Positions 18,243-25,168 of a stretch of 64,000 nt of DNA are shown in pieces. Numbering within the stretch: the first letter of the stretch is position 1; every line of letters starts with the position of its first letter. This stretch comes from Bifidobacterium sp. ESL0745 (GTDB lineage Bacteria; Actinomycetota; Actinomycetes; Actinomycetales; Bifidobacteriaceae), in NCBI RefSeq assembly GCF_029433335.1, contig NZ_JAQTHX010000001.1, forward strand, positions 992,001 to 1,056,000, read 5' to 3'. The notes beneath the pieces were generated by a model that was not told where the DNA came from, ran no database searches, and worked only from the letters and a program-made list of their open reading frames with translations. The translations under genes and the position numbers were made by a program.

Positions 18243-18431
18243 TTAGAGCTCAGCCAACTGTTGCTGTGCGTGCCGGAATCTTGATTCCATAAACGAAACG
18301 GAATGATTATCGATATGACGCAACCTAGCTCTTGCAATGGCCTGCTTGATAACAGAACCCAGCGTTCCCGCGTAATCCCGCGCTTCCTGCCGCGAAATGG
18401 CCTGGCAAAAACCGTTACTTTGCGTTTTCTC
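18243..18431 (-). pseudogene. Fragment resembling a HipA toxin C-terminus
   Basis: An open stretch of 62 codons without any start codon ends at TAA (18243-18245) and begins just after an in-frame TGA, immediately downstream of the XRE gene. It reads SRQEARDYAGTLGSVIKQA then ARLRHIDNHSVSFMESRFRH, helical and similar in pattern to the end of HipA kinases. Most of the gene is missing, so it would be a deletion remnant. The HipA identity is inferred by pattern only. Confidence 0.45.
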
Positions 18432-18451: not shown

Positions 18452-18742
18452 TTATCTCACTCGCTTGGGCAGAAGTTGACCGGCACGAACCATGCCCAGA
18501 TCATGCGAATACGGGTCGGCCGCCTTGACCATGTAATCGGCCAGTTGAAGTATGCGGGCGACAGTAATCAGCGCGTCAGAGCGCACCGGCCTCCCGTGCT
18601 CGAGATTGGTCACCGTAGTCTCGCTGATCCCCGCGCGCTTGGCCACGTCGTTGACTCGCAGTCCCAGCAGCTTGCGCTGTGCCGCAAAGTGCTCCCCGAT
18701 AATCCGCAAGTCTCGTTTGGTAGTCGTCGGCGTATATTTCAT
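18452..18742 (-). CDS. XRE-family regulator (HipB-like)
   Basis: 96 residues. Helix-turn-helix around residues 16-70: IGEHFAAQRKLLGLRVNDVAKRAGISETTVTNLEHGRPVRSDALITVARIL. Such small XRE proteins are often antitoxins that repress their own operon; a HipA-like remnant follows directly, suggesting an orphaned HipB. It is the last gene of the AT-rich island, about 107 bases after the duplicated-domain protein gene, so it could also regulate that cluster. Confidence 0.82.
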   Translation of the reverse strand: MKYTPTTTKRDLRIIGEHFAAQRKLLGLRVNDVAKRAGISETTVTNLEHGRPVRSDALITVARILQLADYMVKAADPYSHDLGMVRAGQLLPKRVR

Positions 18743-18849
18743 TTCTTACCTAACGCTTTAATCATTAGCATTCTACTGATTAAGTAGATTATACTATGAC
18801 ATACTAGTGCTTATAGATAAAGTCATAGCACAAAATACAACACTAATTT

Positions 18850-19827
18850 TCAAACCATTGGTTTAAGTGTCATTACAAAAACATTGTCGACAGTTTTAGT
18901 TAAGAATTGTAAATTATTTTGTCGTAGGCCTCCAATCTCAGCACTTTCTTTAATGAAACGTTCCGGAGATATATTCATCTGCGTTGCAAAGCAGCTAACT
19001 TCCGTATCATATAGTTGACTCGGTTTTGTTACCTTAAAAGTCATCTCTATTTGATTTTCTGAAAGCTGATATCTGAAATTTGGATCTTCCTGAGTTGGTG
19101 TTGGAGCACATTTCCAAAAAATTTTAGCAACTTTAGAAGTAACGGATGTAGAAGTTGCCCCAGCTGGAACATACCATTGAGCTGAAGACCCATAGCCACC
19201 CTCAAGATTCCTTTGTTTCACCATAAGATCGAGCCAACCGGTTGAACCATCAGAAGCTTGGGTACCAGTATCCATAATTTTGGATTGAATATTATAATTA
19301 CCTTCAGAATTTACACGCCAGCCATGCTCTATTGTGCCGGCCTTTGTCAACTCAGCAGTTCCTAACCCAAGTTTTGAAGCAAAGCAGCCAACAATCTGGT
19401 CAGACCAAGCAGAGGGATAACTCACCCTCAACCATAATTCAGACTGATCATCAGATAAATCATAATAAAAATTATCATCATTTGGCTGAGACTGTGGAGA
19501 GCATTCCCAAAAAACACGTGCTATATCAGTCTTCTGACTCAATTGTGAGTCTTTGGGAGCATAAAATCGATTGTTGAATGAACCAAAACCCCCACCATCT
19601 TTCGTTGTCTCTGGATTGTTTAGCTTTTCCCCATTATCAGGAGTAGTCGTTTTTTTACCAGTATTTTTCTTCACACCATTAGTATTAGAAGATTGTTTTT
19701 CCGCAGAACTGTTGGAAGACCCTCCTACTATCGAAGAAGTAAGCCCTGTATAAATCCCTACAATCATCAGTACTGCCGAAAGAAGTAATCCCAAAACGGA
19801 AATGATTTTGATACGATTTTTATCCAT
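18850..19827 (-). CDS. Unknown membrane-anchored protein with a duplicated domain
   Basis: 325 residues; family not recognised. A single N-terminal membrane segment (residues about 8-30) is followed by a Ser/Asn/Lys/Thr-rich spacer to residue 85 and then two copies of one domain, about 88-203 and 218-322. Shared positions include VFWECSP vs IFWKCAP, NFYYDLSDDQSE vs NFRYQLSENQIE, VSYPSAWSDQIVGCFA vs VTKPSQLYDTEVSCFA and WRVNSEGNYNI vs LRQNNLQFL. Each copy keeps two cysteines that could form a disulfide, so the domains are probably outside the cell. The start lies 8 bases after the stop of the upstream coiled-coil gene. AT-rich compared with the flanks. Confidence 0.75.
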   Translation of the reverse strand: MDKNRIKIISVLGLLLSAVLMIVGIYTGLTSSIVGGSSNSSAEKQSSNTNGVKKNTGKKTTTPDNGEKLNNPETTKDGGGFGSFNNRFYAPKDSQLSQKTDIARVFWECSPQSQPNDDNFYYDLSDDQSELWLRVSYPSAWSDQIVGCFASKLGLGTAELTKAGTIEHGWRVNSEGNYNIQSKIMDTGTQASDGSTGWLDLMVKQRNLEGGYGSSAQWYVPAGATSTSVTSKVAKIFWKCAPTPTQEDPNFRYQLSENQIEMTFKVTKPSQLYDTEVSCFATQMNISPERFIKESAEIGGLRQNNLQFLTKTVDNVFVMTLKPMV

Positions 19828-19835
19828 TTTTTATC

Positions 19836-20549
19836 TCACTCCTTTCCATAATCATTAATATGCACAAGAAGCACTTGATTTTCTTCATCCAAACGTGTTG
19901 CATCATTCTGAAGTTGAGAAATTTTAGTTTCAATCATTCCCAACGCCAACTTTGCTGCCTCATAATCTGATTCTGCTTGATCCGCAAGACTTGTTAATTG
20001 ATTCAGATATTTCAGCTCCTGTTGTTCTTCATCAAAACGCTTCTGACAAATATCTTGATATTCTTTTGCATCCTCAGGTGTGGTTGCGAGACCAGTCAAC
20101 AAAGCTCGTAACATATTTTGAACAGCAAAATGGCTTTTATATCCGGTCGGAAGTTCAGATTCCAATTGATTAAATTCTTCCGAAAAATCGCTTAAACTTT
20201 CCTGCGATTGTTTATATGACTGAGCAAGCTTGGGCACCGCACGCTGAGCCTCTTTATACCGAGTATCCTGAATTACTGCACTTAGGAAAAGAAAGAATCC
20301 CAAAGCTCCGCCAACGGCAGCGATGTTCCATTGACTTGTGAAGATACACGCCAGCAGAGTAAACGCAAGAACGATAAAAGCAACAACAATTTCAACCTTC
20401 GAACTCGTTGAAAATGAATTACTCCTAGCAACGGCAAAGTCCTGACGCTGCTTCTTTTTGTCTGTCTCTTCAAGAGTCTCAAAATCCTGGTTAAGGGTAG
20501 AAAGCTTTCCAATCAATTGAGAACGGCTGAGATCATTCACTTCCATCAT
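19836..20549 (-). CDS. Two-TM coiled-coil membrane protein, unknown family (second)
   Basis: 237 residues. An N-terminal helical region (1-45) is followed by two membrane segments (about 52-70 and 74-92: VEIVVAFIVLAFTLLACIF and GGALGFFLFLSAV), then a long Glu/Gln-rich coiled coil to the end (LEETD..., QSYKQSQESLSDFSEEF..., LNQLTSLADQAESDYEAA). The layout mirrors the preceding gene, so the two probably form one membrane complex. Its start overlaps that gene's stop (CAATGATGG), with GGGAGG just upstream. Confidence 0.75.
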   Translation of the reverse strand: MMEVNDLSRSQLIGKLSTLNQDFETLEETDKKKQRQDFAVARSNSFSTSSKVEIVVAFIVLAFTLLACIFTSQWNIAAVGGALGFFLFLSAVIQDTRYKEAQRAVPKLAQSYKQSQESLSDFSEEFNQLESELPTGYKSHFAVQNMLRALLTGLATTPEDAKEYQDICQKRFDEEQQELKYLNQLTSLADQAESDYEAAKLALGMIETKISQLQNDATRLDEENQVLLVHINDYGKE

Positions 20550-21313
20550 TGAACCTCCCTTAAAACGTCATCAGGATTTTCGTTGTGCCGGCTAACGATA
20601 TTTCTTAAGTCGTTGTTTCTGTCCTTAATCGGCTTATACCGACCACGCCATTCTTCGAGCGCACGAGTTGCCTCAACAATTTTTACAGTTCTAAGAATTT
20701 CAGTTTTTCGCTCATAATCTGCTCGACGTTCTTGCTGTTCAGCTTGTCGCTGCTGGAGGTCCTGAATGATTTGTGTATGCTTTTCAATCTCATATTCTTC
20801 AGCGATATCAGCAATTGAATCGTTGCTATTCTTTAAATGCTCGATGAAATAGCTCAATTCATTTGCATGACGATACTCATTCGGGATCAATCTCAACTCT
20901 TCGCCATATTCCTCTCGCATCTGGCCCAAGCCTTCAGTGAGTTCTTCGGATTTCTTTTCCATTCCCGGAATTTCGTTGAGTAGAGTTTCGCTTGTCTGTT
21001 TCTTTTTTAACGCAATAGGTATCAAGATAAGACCAGTACAGATTGGGATCAAACAAATCCACAGGTATCGTTGAGGAAGAACCCCGAGGATGCCAACACC
21101 CGTCACTATCAAGAAAATGGCAAAAGTTAGCGAGCGATAATAAGAATCTCGTTTGCCCTCGTAATCTTTACGAGCCTTGTCAGTCATTGAATCCGCAGCA
21201 TTTTTCACCTTGTCAAAAACGGTGACTACGGGAATCATGCTCGTCAAAAACTGAATCAACTCGTCATGAGAGTATCGATCAATAGTCTCAACTTTTCGTA
21301 ACGCAGCTGCCAA
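20546..21313 (-). CDS. Two-TM coiled-coil membrane protein, unknown family (first)
   Basis: 255 residues from a TTG start at 21313, chosen because AGGAG sits 6 bases upstream. Residues 1-55 are helical, two membrane segments follow (about 65-82 and 85-103: LTFAIFLIVTGVGILGVL and LWICLIPICTGLILIPIAL), then a charged coiled-coil tail with KHTQIIQDLQQRQAEQQERR. No enzymatic motif is seen. It is the first of three tightly packed genes; the upstream nuclease gene probably belongs to the same transcript. Confidence 0.75.
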   Translation of the reverse strand: MAAALRKVETIDRYSHDELIQFLTSMIPVVTVFDKVKNAADSMTDKARKDYEGKRDSYYRSLTFAIFLIVTGVGILGVLPQRYLWICLIPICTGLILIPIALKKKQTSETLLNEIPGMEKKSEELTEGLGQMREEYGEELRLIPNEYRHANELSYFIEHLKNSNDSIADIAEEYEIEKHTQIIQDLQQRQAEQQERRADYERKTEILRTVKIVEATRALEEWRGRYKPIKDRNNDLRNIVSRHNENPDDVLREVQ

Positions 21314-21410
21314 GGGAATCTCCTATTCTAAAAATTCGAAAATCAGTCTGTAGTCTGCTCCATATCATCAAGCTCATGACCATCATTGTCAGAAAGAGCC
21401 TGCTTGCTTT

Positions 21411-22676
21411 TCAGATATTCAAACATGTCATTTTCGAAACTAAGCATTTTTCAACAGCATTGCGAAGTTTCTTGGCATTATCTTCCTCATCCTTTCCCAA
21501 CTCATTAACTCTCAATTTGTCGGTTTCATCGATGCCGGTATCAATCGTGTATATTCTGCGCAAGTCCAATTCTTTGTTACTTGTCTTTTCTATTCCTCCT
21601 CGTTCAGAGCAATAGTGTTGCAGCATATCCATCTTGTTAAGAATCCGTGTTGGTTGGCCGGCACGGTGTATTTCAAAAACAATACTGGGCTTTTGAAGTC
21701 CACCCGGCCCTGGATAAACCCAATAGTTATAACTCGCATATGGCTCCGTCCACGCACCCGAATGTGTCTTATTCTCCAGGTACTCATTCATTCTCGAAGT
21801 AGTAAAGAACAGATAATCACTAGTTGAATCTTCCGGCTCACAATCGTTAATATCAATATCATCCTTCTGTTTAAATTCATTCAAAACCTTTAGATACATT
21901 TGTCTTAATTCAGTGTTTATCCCATCATTATCCGGCACAGCCCGATCATGGACAAGATCAAAAACAGCAGGATATTTCCTATAGAGATTTAAAGCCAAGT
22001 CATCAAGTTCGTCGTTTTTCACAAGATTCTCCTTCTCCAAAAAGTCAATGTAATCATCAATGAGTTCTTTTGCTCGACCTCGTGCCAAGGTCTCGATGGA
22101 TTTCAAAACCGTGACTATGGATGTATACGAAAGCGTCAACCAACTATCAGGTTCATCACTTTGATCTTCAGGAACCCGCTCACCTTTGGGAGTAAGGAAG
22201 ATATATATTTTATGTGCGTATCCTGCATAGGTGTTTTCAACATATTCTCGATAGCGAAACAGCTGATTATCATGCAGCCACGCATCAACCTTGTTCTCGA
22301 TGCATATCACCATACGATTATCAAGTGTTTTCACCAAAATATCTATGTGCGCTTCTCGTTCACGAACCACCTCAATCTCAGTAAGATCATCGGCAGCTAA
22401 CGATGCAAAATCATTCGCAAGCTCATCTGAATGGTGATTTTGAATGTTTTCTCGATACAACTGGGCAAGAAGACGACGTATAAACAGGTCCCCCAGTCCA
22501 TGTGGAGATGCCGGATCCATCAGCCAAGCCAAAAACGCCGAATGCTTAATCTCCTGACGCCCCATGTCAATAACATCAAAAACATTCACACGGCTTAATC
22601 TTTGGCTAAGTTTGTTAAATTGCGGATCCGAAAGCAACTTCATTGCCTGCACCATGACAGAATCCTCTTCAGCCAT
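21411..22676 (-). CDS. PD-(D/E)XK nuclease superfamily protein, possibly frameshifted at the 3' end
   Basis: 421 residues from ATG at 22676 (AAAGGAG upstream). The N-terminal HSAFLAWLMDPASPHGLGDLFI (45-66) and catalytic core HIDILVKTLDN...ICIENKVDA (Asp112, Glu127-x-Lys129) followed by NQLFRYREYV match the PD-(D/E)XK family that Pfam groups as PDDEXK_4, common in defence islands. At a run of five T (21447-21451) the frame ends quickly in CLVSKMTCLNI; a shift would continue as MLSFENDMFEYLKSKQALSD to a stop at 21343, only 29 bases before the next start. This suggests a one-base deletion or assembly error. Confidence 0.8.
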   Translation of the reverse strand: MAEEDSVMVQAMKLLSDPQFNKLSQRLSRVNVFDVIDMGRQEIKHSAFLAWLMDPASPHGLGDLFIRRLLAQLYRENIQNHHSDELANDFASLAADDLTEIEVVREREAHIDILVKTLDNRMVICIENKVDAWLHDNQLFRYREYVENTYAGYAHKIYIFLTPKGERVPEDQSDEPDSWLTLSYTSIVTVLKSIETLARGRAKELIDDYIDFLEKENLVKNDELDDLALNLYRKYPAVFDLVHDRAVPDNDGINTELRQMYLKVLNEFKQKDDIDINDCEPEDSTSDYLFFTTSRMNEYLENKTHSGAWTEPYASYNYWVYPGPGGLQKPSIVFEIHRAGQPTRILNKMDMLQHYCSERGGIEKTSNKELDLRRIYTIDTGIDETDKLRVNELGKDEEDNAKKLRNAVEKCLVSKMTCLNI

Positions 22677-23028
22677 CAGCGTTCGCTCCTTTGCTCTGGT
22701 TTTGAAATGGTTACGATGAACTTTCTTGTTCTTAAAGTCGTAACCAATCAAACACTTTAATTATTATCCCGCTTTACTCAGTTATCTGTATTGGCATTAA
22801 ACCTCTAATACAGATTTTACATTTTAGAAAACCAAAAACTCTGCTCTAGCCTACGAATCAATCCCCGTTCTTTAAATACCTCATTGCAGCAGGGAAGAGC
22901 CTCGATTCTCGGATTTTATGTTTATACAATTAATTCTTCTTTCCTTTATCTTTCATAAAAGTTATCTTATATAAAAGATAATAAGATTATAGATGTACAA
23001 ACTATTTCTTTTAACTTGCATTTGCCAA
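22677..23028. other. AT-rich intergenic region
   Basis: 352 bases without a convincing gene. Contains a weak inverted repeat TTATCTT / AAGATAA (22962-22981), possibly ending the unknown 139-residue gene, and A/T-rich promoter-like sequence 22720-22800 ahead of the nuclease gene. Confidence 0.4.
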
Positions 23029-23448
23029 TTATTCGCGATTGAGAATCTTGATATTTTTCTTCACTTCATCAGGAGCAAGAATATCGTACTCATCAAAATA
23101 TGCAATCGGATTTTTGGAATTGTTGCGCTTAAGAGTCTTACCTAACCATGCATCATATTTATGTTCTACCGGTTCACCAATGAAACCCATGCGCAAATCC
23201 TCGCGCTTAATCAGGCCACGAATCTTGGCCACACAAACGACGACGTTTTCAGGATTGAGAATGACCGCCAAATCGCAGCGTACAGCGCGACCTGGCTCAA
23301 GCTTCCACCAGCTGTTGCCAGCATGCCACACTTCTTTGGGTGACATACCCTCCTGCCAGCCTACGAATTCGCGGTAGCCACCTTCGGGCAACTCTTCATG
23401 ACGAACTGGCCTGCGAGGACCAAGTTTCATAGTAACAATCTCGCTCAA
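23029..23448 (-). CDS. Unknown 139-residue protein
   Basis: Not recognised. Soluble, mixed alpha/beta composition, with conserved-looking WHAGNSWWKLEPGRAVRCDLAVI and VVCVAKIRGLIKREDLRMGFIG, ending in a Lys-rich DEVKKNIKILNRE. The start is taken as TTG at 23448; ATG at 23430 is possible. It lies between the DUF2442 gene and the nuclease gene on the same strand. Confidence 0.65.
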   Translation of the reverse strand: MSEIVTMKLGPRRPVRHEELPEGGYREFVGWQEGMSPKEVWHAGNSWWKLEPGRAVRCDLAVILNPENVVVCVAKIRGLIKREDLRMGFIGEPVEHKYDAWLGKTLKRNNSKNPIAYFDEYDILAPDEVKKNIKILNRE

Positions 23449-23532
23449 AGAAACCTACCTTGTTGAATCAAAACTTTTATACTAGTTTCCACGATAGTAA
23501 GCAAGCTGCACAGATTTAGAGACAAAACTTAA

Positions 23533-23844
23533 TCAAGCAGAAACCAACTCTCCGTGAGAATCATATTCGTAGGAGTGATCGTATAAGTAGGCTGGAGAAA
23601 TATCGATACTACCGTTTTGCCACATCGGAATGCCATGTATGACCTTGACGTTCTCAAAGACGGCTTCATCACGTAATGGTTCAAAAGCTGGGACTTTGTC
23701 AAATAGTTCGGTAAAATCACACAAACGAGTTTCACCAGTGGAAAAGGTGACCAGCATAATATGGTCATCGGTCACACGTACCGACTCGGCCTTCAACTCC
23801 TTTGTAGGAGCATCCGCATACACGATGCCATTTACTTCAAACAT
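23533..23844 (-). CDS. DUF2442 family protein
   Basis: 103 residues with the family's pattern: VTDDHIMLVTFSTGETRLCDF, then AFEPLRDEAVFENVKVIHGIPMWQNGSIDISPAYLYDHS. Function is unknown; members typically sit next to DUF4160 proteins, and the pair is often listed as a putative toxin-antitoxin module. It starts 11 bases after the DUF4160 stop. Confidence 0.85.
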   Translation of the reverse strand: MFEVNGIVYADAPTKELKAESVRVTDDHIMLVTFSTGETRLCDFTELFDKVPAFEPLRDEAVFENVKVIHGIPMWQNGSIDISPAYLYDHSYEYDSHGELVSA

Positions 23845-23855
23845 TTGGCGTCTCC

Positions 23856-24122
23856 TTATGAGAGCGGCTTAATCCGGTCAAACGAATGCCCGGCTACTGC
23901 TTTGTTCCACGCTTCATACAGCTCATCTTCATGCAATACTAGCCAAGCTGCCACTAGCTTATACTGCTTTGCAGGAAGAGAACCAGCCAAAAGCTGTCCA
24001 TCGAGGCCAATAGACGCTTCAAAATCACCGTAATAGACATGAACATGCGGACGATGATGCTCTTTCTCGTCCTGATACATCATTCGTATCACGATCCCGA
24101 AAAATCTACTTACCTCCGGCAT
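23856..24122 (-). CDS. DUF4160 family protein
   Basis: 88 residues: MPEVSRFFGIVIRMMYQDE, then HHRPHVHVYYGDFEASIGLDGQLLAGSLP, the family core with its HxPHVHV motif. It is the upstream partner of the DUF2442 gene. Role in toxin-antitoxin function is inferred from family context, not shown. Confidence 0.87.
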   Translation of the reverse strand: MPEVSRFFGIVIRMMYQDEKEHHRPHVHVYYGDFEASIGLDGQLLAGSLPAKQYKLVAAWLVLHEDELYEAWNKAVAGHSFDRIKPLS

Positions 24123-24197
24123 TTTGTCACCCGCCTCGTCTTGCTTTCAGGTTCTATTGTATAAGAAAACTGTAAGCCTTAAACATTTAAACTAGTT

Positions 24198-25118
24198 TTA
24201 TAATTGCGAATCCTCGTCACTGCGCTGTACAAGACCAGCATCGAAGAATTGCACCAGTGACGTTGCAAGACCAACCGCAACTGTTGCTTCCTCAACGGTG
24301 ACCGGCTGAGATTCGACACCGCCATGCCTGTCATGTTGACCGCGCCATAATAAACCAATCATATCGAGCAGCGTTTGTGAAGAAGTAGAACGTTGATCTT
24401 CCTTCAGCATGGGCAATCGCCAATTTTTTTGATCACTCATCTGGTTCAAAACCGTCCCAAGAGTGGCCTTTGAGTTTTGAGGGGAAACCACAGGAATTGC
24501 AGCATCTTCCACAGATTTAATTGCATGGGAATAAGCCTCACCAGGCTTTGGATCTATTCCATAAAGACATTCCCAAGCTTTGGACAATTCGATACCAGCA
24601 TTACCCGAATGGGTCATCACCGCATTTGCGACCTCTTGAACTCCCTTTGGCACTCGTCGTATAAGACCAGGACGGCCAGCTCTTGCATGTTCCGATACAA
24701 GCCAAGCGGACTTACTCCGTTCTAGAATCTTATCCAACTTGCCTGCGTCTACATTATCAAAAAACGCAAGAATATAATCAGCAAGAATTAATGGATTCGA
24801 AACACGTTCAAGTTCAAACATCGCCTGATCCAATTGGTCAGTTCCATCACTTTCATAGTGAATTTCTTTGTTTAAATCAGGAAAACGAATTTGCAAAATT
24901 TGGCACATTTGCTCTGTCTCGGCTACCCTCAATCCATAAATCGGGTGTCGGCCCCCATACAAATCTTCTCTATACGTAGCAAGACAAGTTATGCTTTCTC
25001 TTACCCAAGCCCAAAATGGTGCGCTCATCCAATCTGGTACACCATCATGCAGCGCATCATATTCGGCTATTTCTTCTTCGGAGTCCACACCCAAAGGTCT
25101 CCAAACCTCTTCATCCAT
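24198..25118 (-). CDS. HEPN/abortive-infection C-terminal-like protein
   Basis: 306 residues from ATG at 25118 (AGGAGG upstream; a TTG one codon earlier is possible). The N-terminal half contains ALHDGVPDWMSAPFWAWVRESI. The C-terminal half has AWECLYGIDPKPGEAYSHAIKSVEDAAIPVV and, at residues 260-266, RGQHDRH, which fits the Rx4-6H pattern of HEPN ribonucleases, followed by AVGLATSLVQFFDAG. This resembles Abi_C-type proteins. RNase activity is inference. First gene of the AT-rich island. Confidence 0.72.
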   Translation of the reverse strand: MDEEVWRPLGVDSEEEIAEYDALHDGVPDWMSAPFWAWVRESITCLATYREDLYGGRHPIYGLRVAETEQMCQILQIRFPDLNKEIHYESDGTDQLDQAMFELERVSNPLILADYILAFFDNVDAGKLDKILERSKSAWLVSEHARAGRPGLIRRVPKGVQEVANAVMTHSGNAGIELSKAWECLYGIDPKPGEAYSHAIKSVEDAAIPVVSPQNSKATLGTVLNQMSDQKNWRLPMLKEDQRSTSSQTLLDMIGLLWRGQHDRHGGVESQPVTVEEATVAVGLATSLVQFFDAGLVQRSDEDSQL

Positions 25119-25168
25119 CAATGTAACCTCCTGTCTAAAGCATTACGATAATTATCTTTAAGATACAA

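Follow-up and report, generated by a model that had tools for sequence, protein, structure and literature searches.

The window analysed here is a stretch of 64,000 nucleotides from Bifidobacterium sp. ESL0745. Positions 18452-25121 form an AT-rich island with a GC content of 42.1%, against 56.0% for the remainder of the window; the lowest value among 219 other 6,670-bp segments of the 64-kb stretch is 53.4%. All nine genes of the island are encoded on the minus strand, as are both flanking genes. It is inserted between ychF and an nmrA-like gene, and in Bifidobacterium this insertion is variable and rich in defence genes. A presence/absence check showed the locus to be accessory, as a sister species (G092) has only 246 bp at the ychF-nmrA site. 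In other species the interval contains UzuA, Fic, DUF4160/DUF2442 or HTH/HipA-like genes. It is a variable hotspot with a near-empty site. The features on which the analysis centres are as follows.

18850-19827, minus strand: gene H, 325 aa, with an N-terminal transmembrane (TM) anchor (residues 8-26) and a low-complexity linker
19836-20549, minus strand: gene G, 237 aa, with a TM hairpin (52-70, 76-94) and a coiled coil
20546-21313, minus strand: gene F, 255 aa, with a TM hairpin (61-79, 84-102) and a C-terminal coiled coil
21411-22751, minus strand: gene E, predicted PDDEXK_4 nuclease, PADLOC PDC-S26, likely start 22676
22963-22980, with a weaker copy at 22947-22964, no strand: two tandem CTT-N6-AAG palindromes, operator-like, with a 16-bp period
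22986-23014, minus strand: promoter-like site, TTAAAA, 17 nt, TATAAT (10/12), the best match in the island
23029-23448, minus strand: gene D, 139 aa, a separate protein homologous to the modification-sensing domain of CMoRE/PD-T4-3

The other genes, A, B, C and I, seem to lie next to a D-E-F-G-H cassette without being part of it. An earlier note on this DNA had placed them around its defence cluster, a grouping that the analysis did not support. Gene A, described there as HEPN/Abi-C-like, has no Pfam match above the cut-off (the best below it is EcoR124_C, E 0.012) and none in PADLOC, NCBIfam or PDB. No full-length relative of A occurs elsewhere in the 112 genomes of the genus, and one genome has two partial matches. 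The labels DUF4160 for B and DUF2442 for C are correct, both matches passing the Pfam cut-offs, and these genes, like a Fic gene, are also present at the same hotspot without D. For a DhiT-DhiA toxin-antitoxin pair made of B and C, the NCBIfam toxin_DhiT score of 89.4 bits lies below the cut-off of 100. Gene I, the XRE regulator of the note, has a GC content of 58.8% and so falls outside the AT-rich stretch. It resembles HipB in a HipBA pair of which the HipA member is a relic.

The nuclease slot and gene D

The identification of E as a PD-(D/E)XK protein is borne out by its match to PDDEXK_4 (E 4.8e-34), and its defence context by the PADLOC defence candidate PDC-S26 (PDLC04972, E 1.3e-72, 243 bits). 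Comparison with homologues indicates that translation probably starts at ATG 22676 and not at TTG 22751. With this start the D-E gap is 352 bp; the E-F gap is 97 bp, and both leave room for separate promoters. Residues D137, E152 and K154 are invariant across eight aligned sequences; judged from this alignment the PD-(D/E)XK residues are intact, and E is predicted to cut DNA. No TM segment was found in E by simple hydropathy.

D is matched in 19 of the 112 genus genomes, and a nuclease gene adjoins it in 15 of them. The nuclease is of the PDDEXK_4 (PDC-S26) kind in six genomes, UzuA-like in eight and PvuRts1I/SRA in one. In G014 a PDDEXK_4 gene substitutes for the GIY-YIG part of the UzuA operon, and the D of this genome is identical at 139 of 141 residues to that of G100, which has the UzuA version. 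The single PvuRts1I-like nuclease, in B. bombi, has its own SRA reader and lies beside a D that is 81% identical to that of the PDC-S26 locus in the window. On these sequence comparisons the nuclease slot beside a conserved D is exchangeable. G052 has an additional UzuA copy, of which only the first ~146 residues are matched.

The structure model of D matches, in fold, the domain with which PD-T4-3 senses 5hmC, and the one modelled domain of D fills nearly all of its 139 aa. A D-profile match was also found in the C-terminal part of a G127 protein scored as PD-T4-3 by PADLOC, an intermediate sequence through which D is linked to PD-T4-3-type proteins. Scans of family libraries gave no HTH family match for D, and we know of no PUA-type sensing domain that acts as a repressor. 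D is a candidate operator-binding regulator or sensor.

The position of the palindrome points to such a role. The 18-bp palindrome TATCTTTTATAWAAGATA, with at most one mismatch, occurs in 10 of the 112 genus genomes, every one of which also has a D match, and all 15 of its 15 sites in the genus set are at the D locus (hypergeometric 1.6e-9, relatedness being ignored). It is absent from the D-E loci of G087 and G091, and also from G001, G090 and G007. The promoter-like site ends 5 bp ahead of it; this site is a consensus match only, of which 20 were found against 13.8 expected (sd 4.5) from shuffles. Homologues of D are also carried at 39 plasmid loci of other Actinobacteria, of which 13 were inspected. 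A related CTT-N6-AAG lies upstream of D in eight of the 13, compared with 33 of 2,815 control windows, and was not found in the other five inspected. At five inspected plasmid loci D is upstream of an HTH regulator, and it may be this regulator that actually binds the operator. None of the 13 has an annotated DNA nuclease adjoining D, several neighbours being unnamed, so a nuclease beside D is not obligatory.

The same observations bear on a reading of D as a reader in trans, i.e. one half of a two-protein CMoRE in which D recognises modified cytosine in phage DNA and delivers the nuclease, the palindrome being bound by something else. The predicted resemblance in fold to a 5hmC-binding domain, the D-like C-terminal part of the G127 protein and the PvuRts1I/SRA neighbour in B. 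bombi are consistent with this. PvuRts1I has a reader domain of its own, however, the palindrome tracks D, and the plasmid homologues lack an annotated nuclease neighbour at all 13 inspected loci. The trans reader is considered fairly unlikely.

It is quite improbable that D is instead an antitoxin-like partner, restraining the nuclease and repressing the operon within a selfish or abortive-infection module. The small size of D, its location next to a nuclease that may be toxic and the palindromes close to a promoter-like site would suit this role, and the available text of one paper reports that EVE and ASCH, two domains of the PUA type, are found in the gene contexts of toxin-antitoxin systems (PMC7641849). 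The change of nuclease family beside a nearly constant D (81% identity between the window and B. bombi, 139/141 between the UzuA and PDDEXK_4 versions) is nevertheless difficult to square with a D that inhibits unrelated nucleases directly.

The predicted membrane trio F-G-H

Genes F, G and H are tightly spaced, with a 4-bp overlap (ATGA) of F and G and an 8-bp gap between G and H. Simple hydropathy finds two hydrophobic segments each in F and G and one near the N-terminus of H, in agreement with the two-TM layout and the membrane anchor that had been proposed. H contains two Cys-containing domains which are predicted to lie outside the cell; residues 102-186 align with the second part at 33% over 85 residues (E 1.3e-16). 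The description of H as a protein with two domain copies is correct in the window and is not a conserved feature, the second part being absent in G082 and B. bombi.

The gene order recurs elsewhere, as D-E-F-G-H in G082 and as D-[different nuclease]-F-G-H in B. bombi. The cassette of G082, a sister, occupies the same chromosomal site as that of the window and has a PDC-S26 nuclease, with E in two frames. That of B. bombi has other neighbours and a PvuRts1I-like nuclease, with G in two frames. F, G and H occur all together in these three loci only; a remnant of F is present in G090, and D adjoins nucleases also without F-G-H. D, F, G and H are under purifying selection, with dN/dS values against G082 of 0.04 for D, 0.20 for F, 0.18 for G and 0.34 for H, the dS of H (1.7) being near saturation.

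By profile comparison, F and G are members of a bifidobacterial 2TM/coiled-coil family whose genes frequently adjoin defence genes. The family label "bifidobacterial Zn-ribbon/2TM/coiled-coil" was coined in this analysis and covers six reference members. In hhalign the core profile A6 scored 51.4 with G (probability 92.8) and 38.8 with F (67.6), and each of the reversed and 20 block-shuffled controls scored 28.7 or below. Direct alignment of F with G is weak (probability 20.0); G is a remote relative of F through the one 2TM family. F and G lack the N-terminal zinc ribbon, as do G073 and G048 among the six reference members. A TM-anchored secreted H-like protein of the same position and layout follows the 2TM gene in four loci, the G017 copy being of 79 aa, and its match to H in hhalign is weak (probability 6.7).

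The distribution of this family allows F-G-H to be seen as an independent envelope module travelling in the same hotspot, with D-E as the complete defence unit. D-E occurs without F-G-H in G087 and G091, D with UzuA occurs elsewhere, and related 2TM genes are located away from D in G017, G073, G053 and G048. No nuclease is recognisable next to G000:C2 and G083, two weak relatives of the 2TM family. Independence is doubtful, with an appreciable chance of being right, given that D-nuclease-F-G-H keeps an identical order and strand in two settings with different nucleases, and that five of the six strong 2TM-family loci have D or a known defence gene directly next to the 2TM gene or to its H-like partner.

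The layout of F and G, in which a helical cytosolic part comes after two TM helices, is one that we take to resemble SLATT. On this reading they would be membrane-damaging 2TM effectors, forming an abortive-infection arm alongside the nuclease. G has a sub-threshold match to NCBIfam SLATT_5 (E 0.24, 10.9 bits), far under the cut-off of 60, and a nucleotide cyclase was not found among the nine scanned proteins, which leaves the SLATT-like reading highly improbable.

The proposed cassette and known systems

The favoured reading, with a probability of about 0.42, is that D-E-F-G-H is a rare accessory anti-phage cassette in which D controls an exchangeable nuclease and F-G-H acts at the membrane. 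D would bind the palindromic operator, respond to modified phage DNA or nucleotides and, through the palindrome, control the expression of the predicted nuclease E and of F-G-H. E would cut DNA, and F-G-H would act with it, either positioning the nuclease or sensing attack at the cell envelope. The entire cassette would protect against phage. What was computed directly is the recurrence of the gene order in two chromosomal settings, the nuclease exchange, the limitation of the palindrome to D loci in the genus set, the agreement in fold between the D model and the sensing domain, the purifying selection and the variable hotspot. The observations of the earlier note are confirmed in part, and its interpretation is supported in part. 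Its pairing of a membrane part with a nuclease effector stays a fair reading; it named four core genes and omitted a fifth, the sensor-like D, although this gene is central, and missed the palindrome and the exchangeability of the nuclease.

A more specific proposal, which we hold to be unlikely, is that a domain of the CMoRE/PUA type, which senses modified cytosine, makes D the first of a class of transcriptional switches. D would hold the CTT-N6-AAG operator before any slot nuclease and let go on modified phage DNA or nucleotides; here it would also raise the membrane trio, which would dock the nuclease at the point of phage DNA entry. A switch role of D would account for the replacement of one nuclease by an unrelated one in a single slot with control retained, and D could then be used to report the presence of modified phage DNA. 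Should F-G-H act in the service of the nuclease, the cassette would be a multi-protein counterpart, in a Gram-positive symbiont, of SNIPE-like membrane-bound nucleases.

Among known systems, PDC-S26 is matched by E, in which the D...E-x-K residues are kept. The PADLOC label presumably denotes a single-gene candidate, whereas E here follows D and the palindrome and precedes the membrane trio. In relatives, the corresponding position next to D or the 2TM family is taken by UzuA, PvuRts1I-type (PADLOC mREase_II) or GmrSD nucleases, none of which was found in this island. CoCoNuT type IV systems are similar in including, in the available text, coiled coils, PD-(D/E)XK nucleases and YTH-like domains (PMC11090510); the island differs from CoCoNuT/McrBC in that its nine proteins have no McrB-type GTPase match.

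SNIPE is described in the available text as a membrane-bound GIY-YIG nuclease, one protein with TM, DUF4041 and GIY-YIG parts, and shares with the cassette the idea of a nuclease at the membrane acting on incoming phage DNA (PMC13190303). Here, by contrast, the TM parts and the nuclease are separate genes, the nuclease is PD-(D/E)XK, and neither DUF4041 nor GIY-YIG has a Pfam match in the nine island proteins. CMoRE/PD-T4-3 is a type IV, 5hmC/5ghmC-dependent GIY-YIG nuclease, and the available text of the 2026 CMoRE paper reports no homologues of the sensing domain and only single-protein systems (PMC12923530). The D model matches the C-terminal modification-sensing domain of CMoRE. The chain of D, however, contains no GIY-YIG and E is PDDEXK_4; the CMoRE-type sensing fold is predicted here for a free-standing protein, tied to a palindromic site and encoded beside three nuclease families.

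The island and its chromosomal site

The island at 18452-25121 is a real, unusual accessory locus. Its GC content is 42.1%, against 56.0% in the rest of the 64-kb window, and is below that of every one of 219 equal-sized windows elsewhere in the 64 kb. Its nine genes are transcribed in the order A to I, with a 4-bp overlap between F and G and an 8-bp gap between G and H. The earlier note proposed a membrane-nuclease defence cluster here; the AT-rich island it described is confirmed, but gene D was overlooked.

Genes of the island, in order of transcription
24198-25121, minus strand, gene A
23856-24122, minus strand, gene B, DUF4160
23533-23844, minus strand, gene C, DUF2442
23029-23448, minus strand, gene D, 139 aa, without family match
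21411-22751, minus strand, gene E, PDDEXK_4 nuclease
20546-21313, minus strand, gene F
19836-20549, minus strand, gene G
18850-19827, minus strand, gene H
18452-18742, minus strand, gene I, HTH

A close homologue of the flanking nmrA-like gene (86-100% identical) is found in 13 of the 112 genus genomes. The distance from ychF to nmrA ranges from 246 bp in the near-empty G092 to 15,093 bp in G090 across 12 of these loci, window included, where each gene was placed by one alignment; in the thirteenth, G086, ychF lies in two frames. Occupants among the 13 loci include UzuA, Fic, DUF4160/DUF2442 and HTH with presumed HipA-like genes. D is present at five (the window's own genome G000, G082, G087, G091 and G090) and F-G-H at two (G000 and G082); G090 retains a remnant of F. 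The variable gap and occupants and the patchy presence of D and F-G-H therefore mark the locus as accessory. That the homologues are housekeeping genes, the contrary case in the earlier note, is not borne out by D at only five hotspot loci and a gap that can almost close.

G085 and G090 (L126, L008) share a hotspot cluster with a gene which, from its sequence, is presumably ornithine-carbamoyltransferase-like; in G090 it lies beside the D/F remnant. Next to gene I, 51 aa encoded at 18246-18398 match a HipA-like protein at 51% identity, and in G083 and G088 an HTH gene precedes a HipA-like gene at the same site. On these grounds gene I appears to be an orphan HipB.

Recurrence of the proposed cassette and the 2TM/coiled-coil family

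The gene order recurs. In G082, the metagenome-assembled Bifidobacterium sp. B-bin1, the corresponding chromosomal position again holds D-E-F-G-H, with E split over two frames. B. bombi (G013) contains D-nuclease-F-G-H, with G in two frames and a different nuclease, a PvuRts1I-like enzyme with an SRA domain; ychF and nmrA are absent from the 17-kb stretch holding it. Among the 112 genomes, F occurs in the window's own, G082, G013 and, as a remnant, G090, and H in the first three, two weak partial matches (G053, G015) being set aside. A 5.8-billion-protein database returned two matches for G, two for H and four for F as a profile, own copies included. Between the window and G082, dN/dS is 0.04 for D, 0.20 for F, 0.18 for G and 0.34 for H (dS for H, 1.7), and all four genes are under purifying selection.

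Simple hydropathy and charge predict a TM hairpin for each of F and G, with both ends in the cytosol, and for H a single TM segment with most of the protein outside the cell. The two domains of H align at 33% over 85 residues. F and G are distant members of a 2TM/coiled-coil family of bifidobacteria (profile A6), in which some proteins have a zinc ribbon. Against the profile the scores are 51.4 for G and 38.8 for F, with shuffled and reversed controls at or below 28.7; G is recovered directly with one family member (E 1.6e-4), and the direct comparison of F with G is weak (prob 20.0). The family is nearly restricted to the genus, with three weak matches, the window's own among them, in 396 phylum genomes.

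Genes abutted by a 2TM gene or its H-like partner
G017, PDC-S26
G073, UzuA
G053, GmrSD
G048, PD-T4-5
G005, D

No defence gene was recognised at the sixth strong locus, G004, where the gene is at a contig end, and no recognisable nuclease adjoins the weaker relatives in G083 and in the window's own genome (G000:C2:91806-92180, a second weak relative there). In four loci the 2TM gene is followed by an H-like anchored protein that shares position and layout with H; profile comparison of H with these proteins gave prob 6.7. G073 (L112:3800-5820) and G053 (L113:10969-12994) have genes for a WYL-domain regulator and a DnaA-like ATPase near their 2TM, H-like and nuclease genes; a WYL gene is also near family genes in G017 and G048.

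Among the rival readings, F-G-H as an independent membrane module is somewhat unlikely, and F and G as 2TM effectors are highly improbable.

A palindrome accompanying D

Two tandem palindromes lie between D and E, right after the best promoter-like match.

Palindromes between D and E
22963-22980, palindrome 1
22947-22964, palindrome 2, the weaker copy

The motif TATCTTTTATAWAAGATA, with at most one mismatch, is present in 10 of the 112 genomes, all among the 19 with D. Of the 15 distinct sites, none lies away from a D locus; each is either no more than 200 bp from D or, where an operon has UzuA and D at its end, some 30 bp ahead of its first gene. A control search with the reversed pattern gave no sites. 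Looser copies (3-4 mismatches) stand at the corresponding position in G100, G014 and G101; in G005 a single CTT-N6-AAG lies 24 bp before D. Neither form was found in D-bearing G087, G091, G001, G090 and G007.

D homologues are also carried by 39 plasmid records of other Actinobacteria. In the 13 plasmid loci examined, CTT-N6-AAG lies within 150 bp upstream of D in eight, against 33 of 2,815 control windows from the same loci (binomial 4e-13, which ignores relatedness, two of the eight being near-identical). C. crudilactis has two perfect copies. On five Streptomyces plasmids (L149, L152, L153, L156, L157) such sites lie immediately upstream of D, and after D come an HTH gene and then one annotated 'transcriptional regulator'. 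D is the simplest candidate for the palindrome binder because it is the only gene found common to all these settings; in the five Streptomyces loci the HTH gene is an alternative candidate.

The nuclease beside D is exchangeable. The UzuA form that is split in G014 is a fusion with an FtsZ_C-like domain (24.7 bits, against a cut-off of 27). There (L054:4602-7842 compared with L053, L056, L057 and L058) the FtsZ_C-like part is retained as a separate gene and a PDDEXK_4 nuclease replaces the GIY-YIG part, with D still adjacent; this is a natural nuclease swap. In the 13 plasmid loci no annotated DNA nuclease adjoins D, several neighbours being unnamed and the gene table incomplete. With the nuclease exchanged while D stays, D as an antitoxin-like partner seems quite unlikely. 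D as a reader acting in trans, weighed with these plasmids and with the confinement of the motif to D loci, is unlikely. Separately, in G127 a 208-aa gene without PADLOC match (L137:1849-2475) lies 12 bp downstream of a PD-T4-3-like gene and is a possible second component.

The preferred reading, at a probability of about 0.4, is a cassette controlled by D. The sensor-like D would hold the cassette's operator until set free or redirected by modified cytosine of phage origin. The cutting would fall to E, and F-G-H would keep E near the membrane or signal damage from outside through H. Of this scheme, the gene arrangement, the palindrome, the selection and the match in fold of the D model are observed. 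The strangest part of the locus is D, a free-standing domain of predicted CMoRE type that accompanies a palindrome and exchangeable nucleases.
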